A stretch of DNA of 64,000 nucleotides from an uncultured Pseudomonadota bacterium (GCA_903828595.1 CAIKMS010000033.1:62001-126000); one strand, 5' to 3'. Positions 7,780 to 18,500 are shown, counted from the first letter of the stretch. Program-made: numbers and translations. Notes: generated by a model not told the origin, from the sequence alone.

Positions 7780-8036
7780 CAGCTCAAACTCCTCGCACCA
7801 AAGCAAGAAACGCTTCAGTCTCAATAAGGTCCGGATAACGTCGCAAACTGGCACCCGGACGGGTCAAACATCAGGGCCAAGAATACGATGTTGCCTACCC
7901 AGAAGCCACTCAAGCCGGCGTCAACAAAAAACACCGGATTTTGGCTGCGGACCGTTGCGCCAGTCCGCGGGTCGGGTATCGTGGGAGCCTAAAGTGACCC
8001 TGCCGAGCGTTGCTCTACTGGCGAGGAAATAGTCTG

Positions 8037-9830
8037 ATGTACCGTGCACCTTTAAAAGATATTCAGTTTGCCTTAAACCGCGTAGTGGGCAGCGATGTAC
8101 TCGCCCCTTGCCCGGCATACGCCGAATATTCGACCGAAACGGCGCAAGCGATCCTTGCCGAAGCCGGGCGATTCGCGGAGTCCGTGCTGGACCCCCTGTA
8201 TACGAGTGCGGATCGTGAAGGCGCGCGCTGGACCCCGGATGGTGTGCTGACTCCATCGGGCTTTAAAAATGCCTATTCTGGCTATGTTGAGGGCGGCTGG
8301 CCACAACTGCGAGGCCCTACGGCCTACGGAGGACAAGGATCACCCACCTTGCTCCTCACCGCCGTAGACGAGCTTTTTACAGCCGCTAACGTAGCCTTTC
8401 GCCTGTGTCCACTACTAACCACCGGCGCTATTGAAGCATTGACCCAGTGCGGCAGCGACGAGCAGAAGGCAACTTTCCTACCACCGATGATCAGTGGCCA
8501 ATGGACTGGCACGATGAACCTGACTGAACCTCAGGCCGGATCGGACCTAGGATTGCTGCGAACGCGTGCCGTAGCCGATGGCGCGCACTATCGAGTGTAT
8601 GGTCAGAAAATCTTCATCACGTATGGCGAGCACGACCTTGCCGAGAATATCGTGCATATGGTGCTTGCGCGCATCGACGGTGCACCGGCCGGCGTCAAAG
8701 GCATTTCTCTTTTTATTGTGCCCAAGTTTTTGGTCAATGAAGATGGCAGCCTGGGCGAACGCAATGACGTGCACTGCGTCTCCATAGAACACAAAATGGG
8801 CATCCAGGGCAGCCCGACCTGCACCATGCTCTATGGGCAGAAAGACGGCGCGATTGGCTACCTGCTGGGTGAGCCGCATCACGGCCTTGAATACATGTTC
8901 ATCATGATGAACGCCGCACGGTTAGGGGTCGGGATTGAAGGCTATGCAGGGGCCTCCAGAGCCTATCAACGTGCCCTGGACTGGGCCCGTAATCGAGTTC
9001 AAGGAAAGCCGCCGGGACCGCCTGTGCCGACTCCTTTGCCTATTGCCTACCACCCGGATGTATACCGGATGTTAGTGACGATGAAATCGCAGATCGAGGC
9101 CATGCGATATCTCGCCCTATATACCGCAGCTCAACTGGATCTGGGTCACCACCATCACGACGCAGCCCAGCGCCAGGTTGCTCTTGCGCGTAGCGACCTG
9201 TTAATTCCGGTGGTTAAAGGCTGGAGCACGGAGACAGGCCTGGAGTTATGCTCAGTGGGTATCCAAATTCACGGCGGCATGGGCTTTATTGAAGCAACCG
9301 GCGCTGCCCAATCACTGCGTGATGCTCGAATCAGCACGATCTACGAGGGAACCACCGGGATCCAGGCCGCTGACCTGATCGGCCGCAAACTGTTCCGTGA
9401 TAAAGGCCAGGCCCTCAGCGCGCTGCTCGCCGATATCCGCCTTGAATTAGCCGCGGAGACCACCAGTGATGCAAAACTGCAGGCTGTCGTCGCAGCCACC
9501 TTGGAAAATGTTACCCGACTGGAAAGGGTAGCCAAGACACTCATTGAATTGATGAGTACCAACCCCGCGCTTGGCAGCGCGGTCTCGGTACATTTCTTAA
9601 AGCTTACAGGTCTAACGCTCGGTGCCTGGCTGATGTCACTTGCGGCTCAGCGAGCCCATGAAGATATCCAAAGTGTAGCCAGTGACTCTGAGGATTATGG
9701 ATTTTTAGAAGCGAAAATTCAGACTGCGCAGTTTTTTGCAGCGCAAATACTCCCGCAGACCCTCGGACTGGAGCAGATTATCTGCCATGGAGCCGCGGCA
9801 GTGATCGACAACAATCCAGCGCTGCTCTAG
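8037..9830 (+). CDS. Acyl-CoA dehydrogenase, long form with C-terminal domain (DmdC-like)
   Basis: A 597-residue flavoprotein that oxidises an acyl-CoA to the enoyl-CoA. It has the N-terminal helical domain, the FAD-binding NLTEPQAGSD (161-170), the IHGGMGFIEATGA region and the catalytic glutamate in IYEGTTG (E437), then an extra C-terminal helical domain typical of the ~600-residue class that includes DmdC and some FadE proteins. The ATG at 8037 has GAGGAA eight bases upstream. Its position opposite metY is compatible with methylthio-acyl metabolism, but substrate chain and type cannot be read from sequence. Confidence 0.9.
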   Translation: MYRAPLKDIQFALNRVVGSDVLAPCPAYAEYSTETAQAILAEAGRFAESVLDPLYTSADREGARWTPDGVLTPSGFKNAYSGYVEGGWPQLRGPTAYGGQGSPTLLLTAVDELFTAANVAFRLCPLLTTGAIEALTQCGSDEQKATFLPPMISGQWTGTMNLTEPQAGSDLGLLRTRAVADGAHYRVYGQKIFITYGEHDLAENIVHMVLARIDGAPAGVKGISLFIVPKFLVNEDGSLGERNDVHCVSIEHKMGIQGSPTCTMLYGQKDGAIGYLLGEPHHGLEYMFIMMNAARLGVGIEGYAGASRAYQRALDWARNRVQGKPPGPPVPTPLPIAYHPDVYRMLVTMKSQIEAMRYLALYTAAQLDLGHHHHDAAQRQVALARSDLLIPVVKGWSTETGLELCSVGIQIHGGMGFIEATGAAQSLRDARISTIYEGTTGIQAADLIGRKLFRDKGQALSALLADIRLELAAETTSDAKLQAVVAATLENVTRLERVAKTLIELMSTNPALGSAVSVHFLKLTGLTLGAWLMSLAAQRAHEDIQSVASDSEDYGFLEAKIQTAQFFAAQILPQTLGLEQIICHGAAAVIDNNPALL

Positions 9831-9874
9831 CCAGTCCTGATTTTAAAGATCCCCAGAAGGTCAGGAACTAGCTC

Positions 9875-10507
9875 ATGTACCTACCCGCGCATTTTCGCGA
9901 AGAGCGCCCGGAAATTTTGGACGCGTTTATCGCCGACCATCCGTTAGCCACGATCATCGTTGCGACACCGGATGGCATGGTTGCCAATCATATGCCGGTC
10001 CAGCTTCAACGCTTTGAAGAGGACCGTGTAGTCTTACGCGGTCACATCGCTCGCGGTAACACGCTTTGGAAGGCAGCTACTGAAACATCGCCGGTGCTGG
10101 CCATCTTTGGTGGCGCCGAGCACTACATTACACCGGGTTGGTATCCAGCTAAAAAAGAACATGGCAAGGTAGTACCGACATGGAATTATTCGGTTGTCCA
10201 TGCCCACGGATTTATTCGGTTCATCGACGGTATCGAAGAAAAACGAGATCTAGTCAGCAACCTCACCGACAAGCACGAGGCGTCGCAGGCGCAACCCTGG
10301 GCCATAACTGACGCACCTGACGACTATATTCAAGGCATGCTTGCAGCCATTGTGGGTTTTGAGATCCGGGTTGACCGCCTGGAGGCAAAGTTCAAAGCCA
10401 GCCAAAATCGCAACGAAGCCGACAGAAAAGGGGTGGAATTAGGACTGACCGAGCTCGACGTCCACGCCGCTGCACGACGGGAACTGGTCCGCCCGCCATC
10501 TATCTAA
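9875..10507 (+). CDS. PaiB-type FMN-binding protein
   Basis: A 210-residue protein beginning [13 protein letters not shown], the characteristic PaiB/transcriptional-regulator-like split-barrel FMN-binding family. Also typical are the HMPVQL segment, the GHIARGN turn, [21 protein letters not shown] and the C-terminal KASQNR motif. Founding members were described as repressors of sporulation and protease genes in Bacillus, but many relatives are probably flavin- or heme-handling oxidoreductase-like proteins. It is 44 bases downstream of the acyl-CoA dehydrogenase on the same strand and may share its transcript. Role here is unknown. Confidence 0.88.
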
Positions 10508-10548
10508 AGGCATCATCTTTTTTATTGCTCATCAAAAACTGGAACACC

Positions 10549-11403
10549 ATGGCTTTATCTGAGCTTGCTACACCCAACGCCAACCAAATAAAAACCTGGA
10601 ATGAGAAATCAGGACCGACTTGGGTTAAGTATCGAGAGCAACTTGATGCGCAAATCCGCGAACTTGGCCTAGCGGCCCTGGATCGGCTCAGCCCCAAGCC
10701 CGGCGACCGTAGTTTGGATATTGGTTGTGGCTGTGGGGATACCGTGCTGCAACTGGCCGCGGCCGTAGGCGATACCGGTCACGTTACCGGAATTGATATT
10801 TCACGACCCATGCTTGAGGTGGCGCAGCACAGAGCTGAGCAACAAGGCTTCACTAACATTACGTTCAAAGAACTGGATGCTCAAGAAGCCCCACTACCCA
10901 ACGCCGGTTATGACGCTTTGTATTCTCGGTTTGGTGTCATGTTCTTTGACGACCCCGAAAAAGCGTTTCGAAATTTGCATGCCAGCCTTCGACCCGGAGG
11001 TCGCCTCGCGTTCGTCTGCTGGCGCACGATCCAGGAAAATCCATGGATGCTCGAGCCGTTCAAGGCTGCCCAATCGGTGCTCCCGCCCATCCCTGCGAGT
11101 GACCCGCTAGCACCTGGGCCGTATGCATTGGCCAATCCCGATCGGCTCGAGCGTCTCCTGCATCAAGCTGACTTTAGGCACACTACCATCGAGCGCTACG
11201 ACACATGGGTTGGCGGCCAGAGCCTGGACGATGCCACCCAACTGAGCTTGAAGGTGGGTCCTCTAGGCACCGTCCTGCGGGAGAACCCACACTATCTAGA
11301 CTCGGTCACTGACGTTGTTAGACTGGCTTTACAGCCCTATAACACCGACTCGGGTGTACAGATGCGAGCCGGTGTCTGGTTGGTCACCGCCAGCCAGGGT
11401 TAG
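10549..11403 (+). CDS. Class I SAM-dependent methyltransferase
   Basis: A 284-residue methyltransferase with motif [10 protein letters not shown] (56-64) and the acidic ribose-binding GIDIS (81-85), followed by a motif-II-like [10 protein letters not shown] and a motif-III-like [12 protein letters not shown]. The overall layout resembles UbiE/small-molecule methyltransferases. The ATG at 10549 is preferred over a TTG eight codons upstream because the motif-bearing domain begins shortly after it; the ribosome-binding site is weak for both. It sits between the PaiB-type gene and the DUF3237 pair. Substrate unknown. Confidence 0.85.
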
Positions 11404-11461
11404 TTGCGTCTGACTTTTGGATTTGAACGCTCGCAAACTGAAACCCATGGGGGACTATAAA

Positions 11462-12022
11462 ATGGATCGGCGCAGTGTCTTGCTAGGCCTCACTCTCCCG
11501 GTAATTGGTAGCCCGTCTCGTACCGATGCAGCCGCTACCGCCGCGGCCCCCTTTACCCCACAACGCCATGATATGCCGACCCTGGAGTTCGCCTACGAGG
11601 CAACAGTGCTGCTGGCACCGGACGTGTCTCATGGGAAAACCCCTTTAGGGGAGCGTACGCGAGCGCCGATTATCGGTGGTACCTTCGCGGGCCCTCGTAT
11701 TAGCGGCCGCGTCATTTCAGGTGGCGCGGACTGGCAGTTAATGCGCGCCGACGGCTATCTAGTCCTTGAGGCCGACTATTTCATGGAGGCCTCTGATGGG
11801 ACGCAAATTCGCGTACACAACAAAGGGCTTTGGCATAGCCCAACCGGGGATTGGCCGGCTGACTACGCATTGACGACACCCGAATTTGAAGCACCCATGG
11901 GAACCCATGATTGGCTGAACAGGCATGTATTTGTAGGCACGGTTGGGCCAGGCCCGGGTAAGGAACCAGCCGTAGTGATTACCGTCTACACAATACTTCC
12001 CCCAATGACGGCTGTGGGCTGA
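11462..12022 (+). CDS. Exported DUF3237-family protein
   Basis: A DUF3237 protein (about 185 residues from this start) with an N-terminal segment MDRRSVLLGLTLP that looks like a twin-arginine signal, followed by an Ala-rich cleavage region. The body carries the family's features: LEFAYEA strand, GTFAGPRISGRVISGGADWQ and a second ADYFMEASDGTQIRVHNKG strand set, forming a small beta-barrel. Upstream in-frame codons (from 11417) add no recognisable feature. Its stop TGA overlaps the next ATG by one base (TGATG at 12020-12024), so the two DUF3237 genes are likely translationally coupled. DUF3237 has no settled biochemical role. Confidence 0.75.
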   Translation: MDRRSVLLGLTLPVIGSPSRTDAAATAAAPFTPQRHDMPTLEFAYEATVLLAPDVSHGKTPLGERTRAPIIGGTFAGPRISGRVISGGADWQLMRADGYLVLEADYFMEASDGTQIRVHNKGLWHSPTGDWPADYALTTPEFEAPMGTHDWLNRHVFVGTVGPGPGKEPAVVITVYTILPPMTAVG

Positions 12023-12477
12023 TGACAGGCGTCGTTTCCACACAGCCACTACTCTATTTTTGTGTAAACGTGGGGTCAGCGCTGACCGTGGGTCACCTCG
12101 GTGGCGGTCTGCGCCGCTTCATACCCATTACCGGTGGCACGGTTAGCGGCGCGCATGAAGGGGTGATTTTGCCCGGTGGTGGCGATTGGCAGACCGTCTT
12201 AGCCGATGGCTCTTTGGAACTGGAAGCGCGCTACCATATATCCATTGGGGATGCTGTTGTTGAAGTCCAATCCAACGGCTTACGTACGGGCTCCCCGGAG
12301 GTACTAGCCCGCTTATCGGCCGGTGAGATCGTACCAACGCAGGAGTATTATTTTCGTACTGCGGTTCGTTTGCGCAGTGGCGATGAGAAGCTCGCCTACT
12401 TAAACAAGTTGCTTTTCGTGAGCACGGGCGAGCGTCGAGCCTCGCAAGTGCATCTTTCTATCATTCCAATTCTTTAG
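12022..12477 (+). CDS. DUF3237-family protein, cytosolic paralogue
   Basis: A 151-residue second DUF3237 protein without a clear signal peptide. It has the same pattern as its upstream neighbour: ITGGTVSGAHEGVILPGGGDWQ, then LADGSLELEARYHI. The two are clearly diverged, not a recent duplication. The ATG overlaps the upstream stop by one base and the FAD monooxygenase starts eight bases after this stop, so a single polycistronic unit is likely. One predicted exported and one cytosolic member in the same operon is unusual and may mean they handle the same ligand in two compartments. Confidence 0.75.
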   Translation: MTGVVSTQPLLYFCVNVGSALTVGHLGGGLRRFIPITGGTVSGAHEGVILPGGGDWQTVLADGSLELEARYHISIGDAVVEVQSNGLRTGSPEVLARLSAGEIVPTQEYYFRTAVRLRSGDEKLAYLNKLLFVSTGERRASQVHLSIIPIL

Positions 12478-12485
12478 GTGCTTGC

Positions 12486-13739
12486 ATGCGTATTGCCATC
12501 ATAGGCGGCGGGATCGTCGGCTTAACTACCGCACTAAGCCTGGCACGGGTCGGCCTAAAACCTACGGTATACGAAGCGGTCGTGGAACCCGCCCCGCTGG
12601 GCGTAGGAATCAATTTACTTCCACATGCCGTCCGCGAGCTCAGTGAATTGGGGCTACTTGAAAAGTTAAAAACGATTGGAGTGCCGATTGAGGAACTGAT
12701 TTATTGGATGTCGGATGGCCGTGAAGTATGGCGCGAACCACGAGGCACTAAGGCCGGCTATGGCTGGCCACAGATAGCCATCCATCGCGGTCGTTTACAA
12801 ATGCTTCTCTTAGAAGAGGCCACCCGTGCTCTCGGCAAATCGTCAATCCAATTTGCCCGTTCATTAAAGTCTATCGAGCAAAGTGCCGATGTGGTGTCGC
12901 TTTTGTTTACCGATAGGCAAACAGGTCTGCCTTGCCCACCGGTTGAGGCGGATCTTGTCATTGCGGCTGATGGCATTCATTCTGCCGTGCGACGACAACT
13001 TTATCCCTCGGAAGGCATTCCCAAGTGGAATGGGATCTCGTTATTCCGCGGCACCTCGCGCCTACCCCCTAACACGGTTGGACCCAGTACCTACTGGGCG
13101 GGGCATTCAAAACAAAAATTTGTCGGCTATCCCATATCGACAGATCCCAACAGTGGCGAGATTTTGTTGAACTGGATTTGTGATTTACCCACCGGCACAC
13201 CGGGTTCTACGCCTCGTGAGGACTGGAACCGGCGCGCTGATCCGAGTCTTTTGATCGAGCGTTACCAAGGCTGGCGGCTGCCGGGCCTTGATGTCCTTAG
13301 CATTGTGTCAGCAGCCAAGCAGGTACTGGAATTTCCGATGGTCGATCGCGATCCATTGCCGCAGTGGACCTTCGGTCGGGTCACACTTGCCGGTGATGCC
13401 GCGCATCCCATGTACCCGATTGGGTCTAACGGCGCCACACAAGGCATCATTGACGCCCGAGCGCTGGCGTTCTACGTGGCAACTCAACCATCAATAGCCT
13501 CGGCGCTTAAATCCTATGAAGACGCTCGTCGTCCACCGACCAGCGAGATTGTCCTGACCAACCGTGCCCACGGCCCGGATCGTGTGTTGGAAGTGGCTAA
13601 CGAGCGCGGGCATGATCCGGCCATTGCACTGGATAGTGTTTTCCCGCTAACGGAACGCGCCAGCATTGCACAGGGCTATAAGGCGGTAGCAGGCTTTGAT
13701 CCGACGCAGTTAGCACAGCGACAGAGCTATACCCCCTGA
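12486..13739 (+). CDS. FAD-dependent monooxygenase (aromatic hydroxylase type)
   Basis: A 417-residue class A flavoprotein monooxygenase. The N-terminal dinucleotide fold is RIAIIGGGIVGLTTALSLA; the second FAD motif, near residue 303, is LAGDAAHPMYPIGSNGATQG, and DLVIAADGIHSAVRRQL is the middle DG motif. Such enzymes hydroxylate aromatic or other activated substrates with NAD(P)H and O2. The closest style is salicylate-hydroxylase-like proteins. It follows the DUF3237 pair after eight bases and precedes a 2-hydroxy-acid dehydrogenase by 26 bases. The substrate is unknown. Confidence 0.87.
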   Translation: MRIAIIGGGIVGLTTALSLARVGLKPTVYEAVVEPAPLGVGINLLPHAVRELSELGLLEKLKTIGVPIEELIYWMSDGREVWREPRGTKAGYGWPQIAIHRGRLQMLLLEEATRALGKSSIQFARSLKSIEQSADVVSLLFTDRQTGLPCPPVEADLVIAADGIHSAVRRQLYPSEGIPKWNGISLFRGTSRLPPNTVGPSTYWAGHSKQKFVGYPISTDPNSGEILLNWICDLPTGTPGSTPREDWNRRADPSLLIERYQGWRLPGLDVLSIVSAAKQVLEFPMVDRDPLPQWTFGRVTLAGDAAHPMYPIGSNGATQGIIDARALAFYVATQPSIASALKSYEDARRPPTSEIVLTNRAHGPDRVLEVANERGHDPAIALDSVFPLTERASIAQGYKAVAGFDPTQLAQRQSYTP

Positions 13740-13765
13740 CCCAATAAACTCGGAGGAGCCCATTT

Positions 13766-14929
13766 ATGAGGCCGGCTTGTGTCATGGATTACCGGGAGCT
13801 GGCCAAGCGCAGGCTGCCGAGGTTTTTATTTGAATACATTGATGGTGGCTCGTACAACGAGGTCACGCTGCACAACAATACCCAGGATTTGGCCAACATT
13901 CGGCTCAGGCAGCGGGTGCTCAGGGATGTTGATCGGATAGATACTTCGACTACGCTATTCGGTCAGGCATTTTCGCTACCGGTTGCCCTAGGCCCGGTGG
14001 GTCTGTCGGGTCTTTATGCCCGGCGCGGCGAAGTACAGGCGGCACAAGCCGCGCATGTCAAAGGGACGCAATTTTGTCTTTCGACCTTATCGGCTTGCTC
14101 TATTGAAGAAGTGCATGCGGGCACTCACCAGCCATTCTGGTTCCAACTCTATGTGATGCGCGATCGTAGCTTCATGCGCAGCTTGCTAACTCAAGCCGAG
14201 GTGGCGGGATGCTCTGCACTGGTGTTTACCGTTGATCTACCTACGTCCGGCGCACGCTATCGTGATACGCGGTCAGGGCTTTCGGGTGCCCCGGGGTGGC
14301 GCGGTAAAGTTATCCGGGGCTCACAAATGTTACGCTGCCCAGGCTGGCTCATGGATGTAGGCCTGCAGGGTCGCCCCCATACCTTCGGCAATCTAAGACC
14401 GCTGCTGGGTAAAGATGCCCGGTTGGAGGACTTTTTTGGTTGGATCTCAGACAATATCGACGCGTCAATAAGTTGGTCCGATCTGGAAATGGTGCGCCAG
14501 CTCTGGAAAGGACCCTTGATTATAAAAGGCATCCTCGATGCAGAGGACGCGAGGCAAGCGGCAGCCCTGGGCGTGGATGGCATTATTGTCTCCAATCACG
14601 GCGGGCGTCAGTTAGATGGGGCCTCGTCAACGGCGAATGCACTGCCCTTCATTGTTGAGGCCGTCGGTGATCGTGTAACAGTCCTGGTTGACGGCGGTAT
14701 ACGTTCAGGGCTCGACGTCCTAAAAATGCTTGCTCTGGGCGCAAAAGGCGTACTGCTCGGACGGGCCTGGGCCTACGGACTCGCAGCGCGCAAGGCCGCC
14801 GGGGTAGGCGAAGTTCTCGATATCATTCACGAGGAACTTCGTGTTGCCATGGCCCTAACGGGTTGCAAAAAAATCACGGAAATTGACGCCAATATCCTTA
14901 TAAAACCCTCAACAAAAGACAGGACCTAG
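13766..14929 (+). CDS. FMN-dependent alpha-hydroxy-acid oxidase/dehydrogenase (LldD family)
   Basis: A 387-residue TIM-barrel flavoprotein. The start is fixed by GGAGGAG nine bases before the ATG. It opens with DYRELAKRRLPRFLFEYIDGG, typical of the family's N-terminus, and has the catalytic histidine in IVSNHGGRQLDG (around residue 277) and the phosphate-binding VDGGIRSGLDVLK...GAKGVLLGRAW. Family members oxidise L-lactate, mandelate, glycolate or related 2-hydroxy acids. As last gene of the DUF3237/monooxygenase series it probably oxidises a hydroxy-acid intermediate; mandelate-like substrates are one possibility. Confidence 0.9.
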   Translation: MRPACVMDYRELAKRRLPRFLFEYIDGGSYNEVTLHNNTQDLANIRLRQRVLRDVDRIDTSTTLFGQAFSLPVALGPVGLSGLYARRGEVQAAQAAHVKGTQFCLSTLSACSIEEVHAGTHQPFWFQLYVMRDRSFMRSLLTQAEVAGCSALVFTVDLPTSGARYRDTRSGLSGAPGWRGKVIRGSQMLRCPGWLMDVGLQGRPHTFGNLRPLLGKDARLEDFFGWISDNIDASISWSDLEMVRQLWKGPLIIKGILDAEDARQAAALGVDGIIVSNHGGRQLDGASSTANALPFIVEAVGDRVTVLVDGGIRSGLDVLKMLALGAKGVLLGRAWAYGLAARKAAGVGEVLDIIHEELRVAMALTGCKKITEIDANILIKPSTKDRT

Positions 14930-14945: not shown

Positions 14946-16118
14946 TTAAAGACCCATTTGTTGGGCTTGCTGCCAATAACTCCAGTCCAACCACGGCACC
15001 AAACGTTGGAGGTCTGCGCACTCGATGGTGGGGCCGCCCCACAGGCGCAGGCCTAATGGCGCGTCACGATAGTTACGGATGTCATACGCGACTGATTCTT
15101 GCTCCAGACGCGCTAAAAATCCATCCAGAAAGGCTTTTTGCTGCGCGCGCTGCAACGAATCCCACGAATGGCCGGTAAACTCAAGGCAGATAGAGGTTGG
15201 CGAGAGCGTGCGCAGATCGCGCGCGAGAAATCTTACGAACTCAGTGCGCTGGACCCAGTCCCAAACGCAGTGAAAGTTGCGCTCGGTACGCGCCCATAAT
15301 TCCGGCAGGCCGCCCACTGACTCAGCCCATCGCAAACCGTCTAACGCGTCCTCAACGCAAAGCATCGATGGCGTGTTTGTCGTGAATCCATCAAATAAGG
15401 CGGTATTCAATCGCCCGTTTTTCGTCAGTCTAAATAGTTTAGGCACGGGCCAGGTGGCTTGATACGACTCCAACCGCTCTACCGCTCGCGGGGACACAGC
15501 CAGCATGCCGTGGGCAGCTTCCCCGCCCAAGGCTTTCTGCCAACTCCAAGTCACTACGTCCAGGCGATCGAAAGGCAGCGGCATCGCAAAAATCGCTGAT
15601 GTGGCATCACAAATAGTTAAGCCCGCACGCTCTTTCGGCAACCAGTCAATCCCGGGAACGCGCACACCGGAGGAAGTACCATTCCATGCAAAAACCCAAT
15701 CATGCTCGGGATTCAGATTACCCAGAGTCGGCAAATGCCCGTAATCAGCGTCGAATAAGTGATGGGCTATTTTTAATTCGTCGGCGATATCGGTTGCCCA
15801 TGCCTTGGTAAAGGTATCAAAGGCCAGAACATCCACAGGCCTTGGACCTAACAAAGACCAGAGGGCCATCTCCACAGCGCCGGTGTCTGATGCAGGCACG
15901 ATAGCCAGGCGCCAATCATCCGGCAATCCGGCCAAATCACGACTGCGTTGGATTACCTCACGTAAGCGTTCCCGTGGCGCACCCTGTCGATGGGACCTGC
16001 CAAGCAACGCACCGTTAAGACAGTCGATGGTCCAACCCGGGCGCTTTACGCAGGGACCACAGCCAAACTGCGGTCGATGGGGTTTTTCAAGGGGCCGACT
16101 CGGCATGGGTTGCGTCAT
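14946..16118 (-). CDS. serC: Phosphoserine aminotransferase, SerC-type
   Basis: A 390-residue class-V PLP aminotransferase of the divergent phosphoserine aminotransferase type known from alphaproteobacteria and archaea. It starts with the substrate-binding PQFGCGPCVKRPGW stretch and has GSSGV-like NGTSSGVRVP, the cofactor Asp in ICDATSAIF (D171) and PLP lysine in WSWQKALGGEAAHG (K195). By family it interconverts 3-phosphohydroxypyruvate and phosphoserine. It lies 62 bases downstream of the GNAT gene on the same strand, without serA or serB nearby, so a role in another aminotransferase reaction is possible. Confidence 0.85.
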   Translation of the reverse strand: MTQPMPSRPLEKPHRPQFGCGPCVKRPGWTIDCLNGALLGRSHRQGAPRERLREVIQRSRDLAGLPDDWRLAIVPASDTGAVEMALWSLLGPRPVDVLAFDTFTKAWATDIADELKIAHHLFDADYGHLPTLGNLNPEHDWVFAWNGTSSGVRVPGIDWLPKERAGLTICDATSAIFAMPLPFDRLDVVTWSWQKALGGEAAHGMLAVSPRAVERLESYQATWPVPKLFRLTKNGRLNTALFDGFTTNTPSMLCVEDALDGLRWAESVGGLPELWARTERNFHCVWDWVQRTEFVRFLARDLRTLSPTSICLEFTGHSWDSLQRAQQKAFLDGFLARLEQESVAYDIRNYRDAPLGLRLWGGPTIECADLQRLVPWLDWSYWQQAQQMGL

Positions 16119-16943: not shown

Positions 16944-18500
16944 CTAAGGTCGGGGGAATCGAGCCATCGCCTCAAGATCGTTGAGATCCTGATCGTTACG
17001 AATATAAAGCTTCGACGCGTCACGAACGGGTTGGTAGTCCCACGGCGCAAAGCGACCCTCACGCAGAGCCTCATAGACCCGATGCCGCCGCTTCTGACTG
17101 GCCAGAACATCCTCATTTATCGCACGCAAATCCCAGCGCCGGGCGACTTCAGCCCTAAATTCAGCCACCACCTCGGAGTAGCCCGGATCCTGCGCAAGAT
17201 TAATCAGCTCATCCGGATCTTGCGCCAAATCGTACAGCTGATCCGGGTCAAATACTGAGTGGATAAATTTATGGCTACCCACTCGGATCATCACCACAGG
17301 CGCTATCGCGGCCTCACCCATGTACTCACCCAGCACTTCACCACGACCCGTGTTTCCTTCGAGTTGAGCCACCAGGCTATGCCCGTCCGGCTCATCCGCA
17401 TACACCACCGGGGCTACACCCGCTAGCTCGCACAAGGTCGGCAGGAGGTCAACTAGCGAAGCCGGTTCTGCCACACGCCTGGGAGCGTAACGCTCCGGCG
17501 ATGAGACGATCAACGGAATGCGCGCGGCACCCTCGAAAAAGTTCATTTTGTACCAAAGGCCGCGCTCACCGAGCATATCGCCATGGTCAGAGGCCAGCAC
17601 GATGACTGTATTTTGATCCAGTCCCGCCTGCTCCAATGTCGATAGCAGTCGGCCAATCTGGTCATCCACGTAGGACACTGCGCCGTAATAGGCACGACGC
17701 GCAGCCAGCACCTGCTTTGAACTCACCGGTTGCTGATCCAAACCGATAACGTGACGAATTCGCTGGGAGTGTCGATCCAGTTCACTTACCGGAATGGTGA
17801 TCCGCGGCATGTCAATATCAACGCCCTCGTACCGATCCCAATAGGCCTGAGGAACCGTGTACGGGTCGTGTGGATGGGTCATAGACACCACCATTGCAAA
17901 CGGTCGTTGGTCCTTGCTACGCGCAATATCAAAAAGCTTCTGTCGGGCGGCGTAGACGACTTCATCATCAAAATCAATTTGGTTGGTTCTAACGCATGGT
18001 CCGGCCTGAGTTACCGAATCCATTGTGTGGTACCAACTCGGACGAACCTCCGGCCGAGTCCAGTCCGGCGTCCAGCCAAAATCCGCCGGATAAATGTCTG
18101 TCGTTAACCGCTCTTCGAACCCGTGTAACTGGTCCGGACCGCAAAAGTGCATCTTGCCGCTTAAGATCGTTTGATAACCCGCGCGACGCAGATAATGAGC
18201 GAAAGTCGGAGTTGCCGAAGCCAACTCAGCCGCGTTGTCATACGCCCCAATCTTGGAGGGCAATAGACCGGTCATCATCGAAAAACGGGAGGGCGCGCAC
18301 AGTGGACTGTTACAGTAAAAAGAATCGAACACGACCCCACGGCTGGCAAGCAGGTCTACGTACGGGGTAATCGCTGTGCGGTTGCCGTAAGCCGGCAGCG
18401 CGCTGGCACTGAGCTGATCCGCCATCAGTATCAAAAAATTCGGTTGATCAGTCACGACACTCTCCACGCCGGCTAGGACACTAGCCGGCGATAATCCCAT
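16944..18500 (-). CDS. betC: Choline-sulfatase-like type I sulfatase
   Basis: A 518-residue alkaline-phosphatase-fold sulfatase. PNFLILMADQLSASALPAYG gives the first metal ligands and CAPSR (C68-R72) is the formylglycine site, so a maturation enzyme is needed elsewhere. The phrase SPLCAPSRFSMMTGLLPSKIGAYDNAAE-like region (split here for length) and the C-terminal WDYQPVRDAS are typical of choline sulfatase, which cleaves choline-O-sulfate to choline and sulfate. No Sec signal is evident. A GTG at 18455 with GGAGAG upstream is an alternative start. It lies 49 bases after a TonB receptor gene, suggesting linked uptake and hydrolysis. Confidence 0.8.
   Translation of the reverse strand: MGLSPASVLAGVESVVTDQPNFLILMADQLSASALPAYGNRTAITPYVDLLASRGVVFDSFYCNSPLCAPSRFSMMTGLLPSKIGAYDNAAELASATPTFAHYLRRAGYQTILSGKMHFCGPDQLHGFEERLTTDIYPADFGWTPDWTRPEVRPSWYHTMDSVTQAGPCVRTNQIDFDDEVVYAARQKLFDIARSKDQRPFAMVVSMTHPHDPYTVPQAYWDRYEGVDIDMPRITIPVSELDRHSQRIRHVIGLDQQPVSSKQVLAARRAYYGAVSYVDDQIGRLLSTLEQAGLDQNTVIVLASDHGDMLGERGLWYKMNFFEGAARIPLIVSSPERYAPRRVAEPASLVDLLPTLCELAGVAPVVYADEPDGHSLVAQLEGNTGRGEVLGEYMGEAAIAPVVMIRVGSHKFIHSVFDPDQLYDLAQDPDELINLAQDPGYSEVVAEFRAEVARRWDLRAINEDVLASQKRRHRVYEALREGRFAPWDYQPVRDASKLYIRNDQDLNDLEAMARFPRP

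Follow-up and report, generated by a model that had tools for sequence, protein, structure and literature searches.

The window analyzed here, a 64,000-nucleotide stretch from an uncultured Pseudomonadota bacterium (GCA_903828595.1 CAIKMS010000033.1:62001-126000), carries at positions 11462-14929 four genes on the same strand, which encode two DUF3237 proteins (D1 and D2), a PhzS-like FAD monooxygenase (FMO) and an FMN-dependent 2-hydroxy-acid dehydrogenase (FMN_dh). Comparison of gene neighborhoods indicates that the conserved unit is DUF3237 together with FMO, represented here by D1-D2-FMO. The host genome assembly (3.09 Mb, 94% complete) yielded D1 and D2 as its only DUF3237 genes in a genome search. 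The host probably belongs to the Gammaproteobacteria, given that a Cupriavidus DUF3237 protein is identical to one from a genome assigned to the host's class and that GTDB places the Burkholderiales among the Gammaproteobacteria; it is presumably a freshwater bacterium, its close relatives being metagenome bins, several of which bear lake names. The features of the locus are as follows.

11462..12022, + strand: D1, exported-type DUF3237 protein, 186 aa; PF11578 108.5 bits; twin-arginine-like signal, no lid helix
12020..12024, + strand: TGATG stop-start overlap of D1 and D2, read from the sequence; one base shared
12022..12477, + strand: D2, cytosolic-type DUF3237 protein with lid helix, 151 aa; PF11578 115 bits; this form accompanies FMO in other genera
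12486..13739, + strand: FMO, PhzS-like class A FAD monooxygenase, 417 aa; PF01494 91.8 bits; NF005720 508.9 bits
13766..14929, + strand: FMN_dh, LldD-like FMN 2-hydroxy-acid dehydrogenase, 387 aa; PF01070 427.5 bits; NF008398 574.8 bits

The coordinates given for these four genes in a first-pass annotation of the window were all verified, together with the TGATG overlap and the gaps of 8 bases between D2 and FMO and of 26 bases between FMO and FMN_dh. A ribosome-binding site (GGAGGAG) precedes the FMN_dh start. An earlier D1 start is possible at TTG 11417 in the same open reading frame; the start likely lies at 11462, because 'GGGGGA' precedes that ATG and D1 starts at MDRR in all three orthologues.

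Linkage of DUF3237 and FMO genes

A sister species (G001) has D1, D2 and FMO in the same order and on one strand at another locus, with matches of 73% for D1, 52% for D2 and 72% for FMO, and the arrangement is for this reason taken to reflect more than chance. A D2-FMO pair is also present in another genus (G018) and at locus L064, and a D1-like gene accompanies FMO at L068. Among 80 loci fetched by similarity to FMO, a sample that includes near-identical clusters (Microbispora, Cupriavidus) and in which some compared flanks ended at contig ends, a DUF3237 gene lies within 8 kb of the FMO relative in 26, mostly adjacent and on the same strand. By chance, well under one locus in 80 would be expected, a rough figure derived from the density of DUF3237 (72 matches in 299 genomes, including the two of the window). 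The linked loci span the Pseudomonadota and the Actinomycetota (Streptosporangiaceae, Microbacteriaceae, Acidimicrobiaceae, Rhodobacter, and Cupriavidus), and further FMO-DUF3237 pairs are found in plasmid records of Novosphingobium humi, Peteryoungia, Comamonadaceae, Embleya, and Nonomuraea.

Because the 80 loci include near-identical genomes, trees were used to count changes in adjacency. These quick trees yield 10 changes for FMO and 8 for DUF3237, of which strongly supported branches require at least 7 on either tree. Furthermore, DUF3237 is present in all relatives that carry FMO (6/6), compared with 10 of the 53 that do not (59 relatives; Fisher p 1.8e-4, relatedness not corrected). This recurrent linkage supports the first-pass proposal that the DUF3237 proteins and the FAD monooxygenase belong together, a pairing that receives no mention in those passages of the DUF3237 literature that were consulted.

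Several other loci combine DUF3237 with flavin enzymes. In Rhodobacter kunshanensis (L119:7488-9697), FMO lies between two DUF3237 genes of different clades, adjoining an amidohydrolase (PF07969) and an ABC transporter, and this is an independent double-DUF3237 arrangement. In eight related genomes of group f61, from the same phylum (L189, L193-L198, L200), a different and distant FAD monooxygenase is located ~2.4-3.4 kb from DUF3237, possibly constituting a second flavin-DUF3237 association. On a Roseinatronobacter plasmid (L275:2474-8063), DUF3237 adjoins a GMC oxidoreductase and an unrelated FAD monooxygenase.

FMN_dh and the rearrangement of the locus

The same-strand run that includes the four genes opens upstream of D1 with three further genes, separated by gaps of 44, about 41 and 58 bases, and is bounded on the right by a convergent gene.

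8010..9830, + strand: acyl-CoA dehydrogenase (ACAD); PF12806 83.6 bits, PF00441 75.7 bits; syntenic with L259; heads the apparently older ACAD-PaiB-SDR-FMN_dh block
9875..10507, + strand: PaiB-like FMN-binding protein; PF04299 208 bits; syntenic with L258 and L259; left flank of the putatively replaced SDR site
10525..11403, + strand: SAM methyltransferase; PF13649 82 bits; part of the putatively inserted block
14946..16118, convergent: serC; ends the same-strand run, which stops at 14929

Taken by itself, the window could be read as encoding a single pathway of D1, D2, FMO, and FMN_dh, in which FMN_dh oxidizes an intermediate of 2-hydroxy acid type, for example a mandelate. The common strand, the short gaps and the ribosome-binding site ahead of FMN_dh are in keeping with this explanation, and so are the intact catalytic residues of the enzyme. 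FMN_dh matches PF01070 and the LldD/PRK11197 subfamily (NF008398), and its sequence contains the FEYIDGGS, FQLYV, FTVDLPTSGARYRD, IIKGI, and SNHGGRQLDG motifs that hold the catalytic Tyr, Asp, Lys, His, and Arg residues; its score of 515.8 bits to the LldD-specific model (NF033901) falls below the cut-off of 550.

The single-pathway explanation is contradicted by gene order in the two other genomes of the genus, where the FMN_dh orthologues follow an SDR gene, away from DUF3237. In G001, PaiB-SDR-FMN_dh is followed by GNAT and TonB-receptor genes, as in the window, and in G002 the ABH and OAHS genes occupy one strand, followed on the opposite strand by ACAD-PaiB-SDR-FMN_dh, which runs as far as the end of the contig. 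The flanks in the window match this block, with methyltransferase-D1-D2-FMO at the position of the SDR gene, which was not found in the 94% complete host assembly. The D1-D2-FMO trio of G001 lies on contig C250 (L043) and its FMN_dh on C101. Moreover, a FMN_dh homologue was found near none of 60 Pseudomonadota DUF3237 loci picked irrespective of their neighborhood, and in none of the FMO neighborhoods examined. Because the G001 and G002 orthologues follow SDR in PaiB-SDR-FMN_dh, and methyltransferase-D1-D2-FMO holds the SDR place in the window, gene order indicates that FMN_dh is a neighbor by rearrangement and not a member of the module. As a pathway member, FMN_dh was rejected on synteny; the role assigned to it in the first-pass annotation is hence not supported, and a pathway uniting all four proteins appears very improbable.

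The comparison within the genus comprises three genomes, and parsimony suggests that the methyltransferase-D1-D2-FMO segment entered the ACAD-PaiB-SDR-FMN_dh block in place of SDR. Whichever direction the rearrangement took, the association of FMN_dh with the module is not fixed. No direct or inverted repeats of at least 16 bases that might betray a mobile element were found in 10200-14200, and the G+C content of the putative insertion (55-59%) is similar to that of the flanking genes (53-57%). Homologues of the methyltransferase (46-50% identity) sit at other loci in relatives, and its tie to the module is uncertain. The case illustrates that operon neighbors in a single genome can mislead, since FMN_dh seems to be part of an operon and yet is not conserved with the module. 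The ACAD-PaiB-SDR-FMN_dh block is itself conserved in the genus (window 8010-10507, L258, L259).

Two forms of DUF3237 protein

The PF11578 matches span positions 1-148 of D1 and 3-145 of D2, and both scores exceed the curated threshold of 24 bits. The first-pass annotation described the two genes as diverged, and this is borne out by a quick tree in which they fall in separate deep DUF3237 clades; a recent tandem duplication is ruled out by the same tree. The clade of D2 crosses phylum boundaries and consists of FMO-adjacent proteins, and D2 shows 50-53% identity to the FMO-adjacent DUF3237 proteins of G001, G018, and L064. The D1 clade comprises members from the family of the host and from other Pseudomonadota; on visual inspection most of them open with a Tat- or Sec-like signal, although some gene starts are uncertain, and they are devoid of the lid helix and of the YFRT arginine. 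The N-terminus of D1 presents a twin-arginine-like signal, MDRRSVLLGLTLP, that is conserved in the orthologues at L043 and L045, and D2 has no export signal. D1 hence looks exported and D2 cytosolic, a split kept in orthologues and in line with the first-pass reading, which had placed a Tat-like signal on one copy only and had assigned one protein to the periplasm and the other to the cytosol. The exported, lidless DUF3237 clade represents a defined subgroup for a possible different role.

Barrels are confidently predicted for both proteins (AF2 mean pLDDT of 86 for D1 and 93 for D2), and Foldseek searches with the AF2 models place both in the DUF3237 barrel fold (TM 0.94 for D2 and TMt 0.86 for D1, to 3c5o). 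For D1 and D2 alike, solved DUF3237 proteins are matched first, fungal PhnH next, and the barrel cyclases AbyU and PloI4 more weakly. The closest solved structures are the UPF0311 proteins RPA1785 (3c5o), ABAYE2633 (4pux), and CA_C3321 (3g7g), whose lid region and conserved residues are also present in D2. The lid helix (92-99) and the YYFRT sequence of D2 assign it to the lidded form, as in 3c5o and 3g7g, whereas D1 reads YALTT, has no helix at the lid position and is without the Y(Y)FRT/K arginine or lysine of the UPF0311 proteins. PhnH (PDB 6jjs/6jjt), which also shows a weak sequence match to D1, differs in being a fungal protein of secondary metabolism with about 20-25% identity. It acts in phenalenone biosynthesis, alongside the FAD monooxygenase PhnB.

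DUF3237 proteins were regarded in the first-pass annotation as having no settled function, a view that is now outdated. PhcF, PhcG, and PinX are reported (PMC12607616, PMC12997858) as DUF3237 enzymes of lignin-dimer catabolism, where they act as decarboxylases and open a furan ring. Their report as enzymes argues against the notion that D1 and D2 might be accessory, lipocalin-like carriers for the FMO substrate. The small barrel fold would suit such a role, as would a lidless D1 without the conserved arginine, but D2 keeps the conserved residues R31, R32, D55, Q57, Y71, R88, and R112, and a purely carrier function for both proteins seems unlikely.

Functional context and proposed mechanism

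The FMO match to NF005720 (PRK07538 flavin oxidoreductases; curated cut-off of 400 bits) extends over positions 1-414, placing it among PhzS-like enzymes, and its GGGIVG, DGIHSAVR, and GD motifs are intact. Its nearest solved relative is PhzS (2rgj/3c96; E 2e-78, 268 bits along almost the entire protein), and tetracycline destructases are matched more weakly. PhzS, which acts on a phenazine carboxylate (5-methylphenazine-1-carboxylate), nevertheless falls outside the DUF3237-linked clade in the FMO tree, and no phenazine genes are seen around the locus. These relatives raise the prospect of detoxification instead of catabolism, with FMO inactivating or modifying a phenazine-, quinolone-, or tetracycline-like natural product that the DUF3237 barrels bind or convert further. 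The patchy distribution and shifting genomic sites of the genes would be compatible with such a function, as would the weak fold resemblance of D2 to the pyocyanin demethylase 5k21 and to Diels-Alderases. Conversely, no resistance or phenazine genes are seen beside the copies examined, and neighboring genes elsewhere suggest uptake and catabolism: FMO-DUF3237 pairs adjoin amidohydrolases and ABC transporters in Salinibacterium and Rhodobacter, the Cupriavidus pair adjoins a periplasmic binding protein gene, and a tannase/feruloyl esterase gene is also found beside such pairs. Detoxification is accordingly given a low probability, and the neighboring transporters, amidohydrolases, and tannase/feruloyl esterase, together with the occurrence of other DUF3237 genes in hydroxycinnamate or gentisate clusters, favor a two-step aromatic catabolism. 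Amidohydro_3 and ABC transporter genes recur by FMO-DUF3237 pairs in the Actinomycetota and Rhodobacter (L076, L116, L119), a recurrence that could indicate import of an amide- or ester-type substrate.

Within aromatic catabolism, the reported DUF3237 decarboxylases act in lignin-dimer routes. PhcF and PhcG of Sphingobium SYK-6 and PinX of Novosphingobium rhizosphaerae are placed in the same Pfam family as D1 and D2, explicitly in the case of PinX and through homology in that of PhcF/PhcG, and they act after an oxidation step, a likeness to D2 at the level of family and pathway. D2 could, by extension, be a decarboxylase of this type, with FMO preparing or funneling a monomer. The existence of these decarboxylases in sphingomonads lends some credence to the idea, as does the presence of other DUF3237 genes in hydroxycinnamate clusters. 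The known enzymes, however, follow a GMC-type alcohol oxidation of lignin dimers (in SYK-6, GMC enzymes act ahead of PhcF/PhcG), whereas the partner here is a PhzS-like FMO. Furthermore, PF03055 lignostilbene dioxygenase has no match in G000, G001, G002, or G018, and neither a feruloyl-CoA synthetase nor a hydratase/lyase is seen beside the genes. The lignin-dimer route was lowered because of the missing lignostilbene dioxygenase, and is quite unlikely in this host.

On the observed gene anatomy, conservation, linkage, separate clades, and rearrangement relative to two sister genomes, we build a conditional proposal for the chemistry, the order of steps, the substrate class, and the role of D1. 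In the cytosol, FMO would use NAD(P)H and O2 to hydroxylate an aromatic or quinonoid substrate, a reaction that may be decarboxylative; gene context elsewhere makes an oxidized aromatic a plausible substrate class. D2, a closed β-barrel with a lid and conserved arginines, would then act without a cofactor on the oxygenated, unstable product of FMO, through decarboxylation, ring opening or closing, or tautomerization, like other reported DUF3237 enzymes. Since D1 looks exported, is lidless, and is without the conserved arginine, its most likely place of action is the periplasm, where it would bind a related compound or convert it differently. On balance, we consider a two-step DUF3237-FMO module of this kind, with FMN_dh excluded, to be somewhat probable. 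It is a more tentative suggestion that the genes define an undescribed two-enzyme module of the Pseudomonadota and Actinomycetota, in which the barrel completes the reaction of a flavin hydroxylase without a cofactor and the exported, lidless D1 extends the chemistry to the periplasm.

Several observations weigh against the proposed module. The link is a specific one, in that FMO lies within 6 kb of only one of the 60 sampled Pseudomonadota DUF3237 loci (a Cupriavidus copy), and most DUF3237 proteins therefore work without it; the random placement that the first-pass annotation had named as grounds for discarding the association thus comes close to being true of DUF3237 as a whole, but does not describe this FMO clade (26/80). 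G002 lacks D2, and its D1 and FMO lie on different contigs; in G022, L067, and L069, FMO has no DUF3237 gene next to it. The export call for D1 was made by eye, and the candidate catalytic residues are proposed from conservation. Finally, no lignostilbene, intradiol, or homogentisate dioxygenase was found in the host genome, and hence no such ring-cleavage route points to the substrate; PF02900 matches were set aside as evidence of ring cleavage, given that E. coli also matches this family. DUF3237 being a widespread family with few assigned reactions, the recurrent pair nonetheless offers a testable idea, namely that the FMO product is the substrate of a DUF3237 protein.

Elsewhere in the 64-kb window, no RNA families or tRNAs were found. 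A choline-sulfatase (TIGR03417, 798 bits) without a match in the syntenic stretch of G001 is located at 16944-18500, where it adjoins a GNAT gene and a TonB-dependent receptor.

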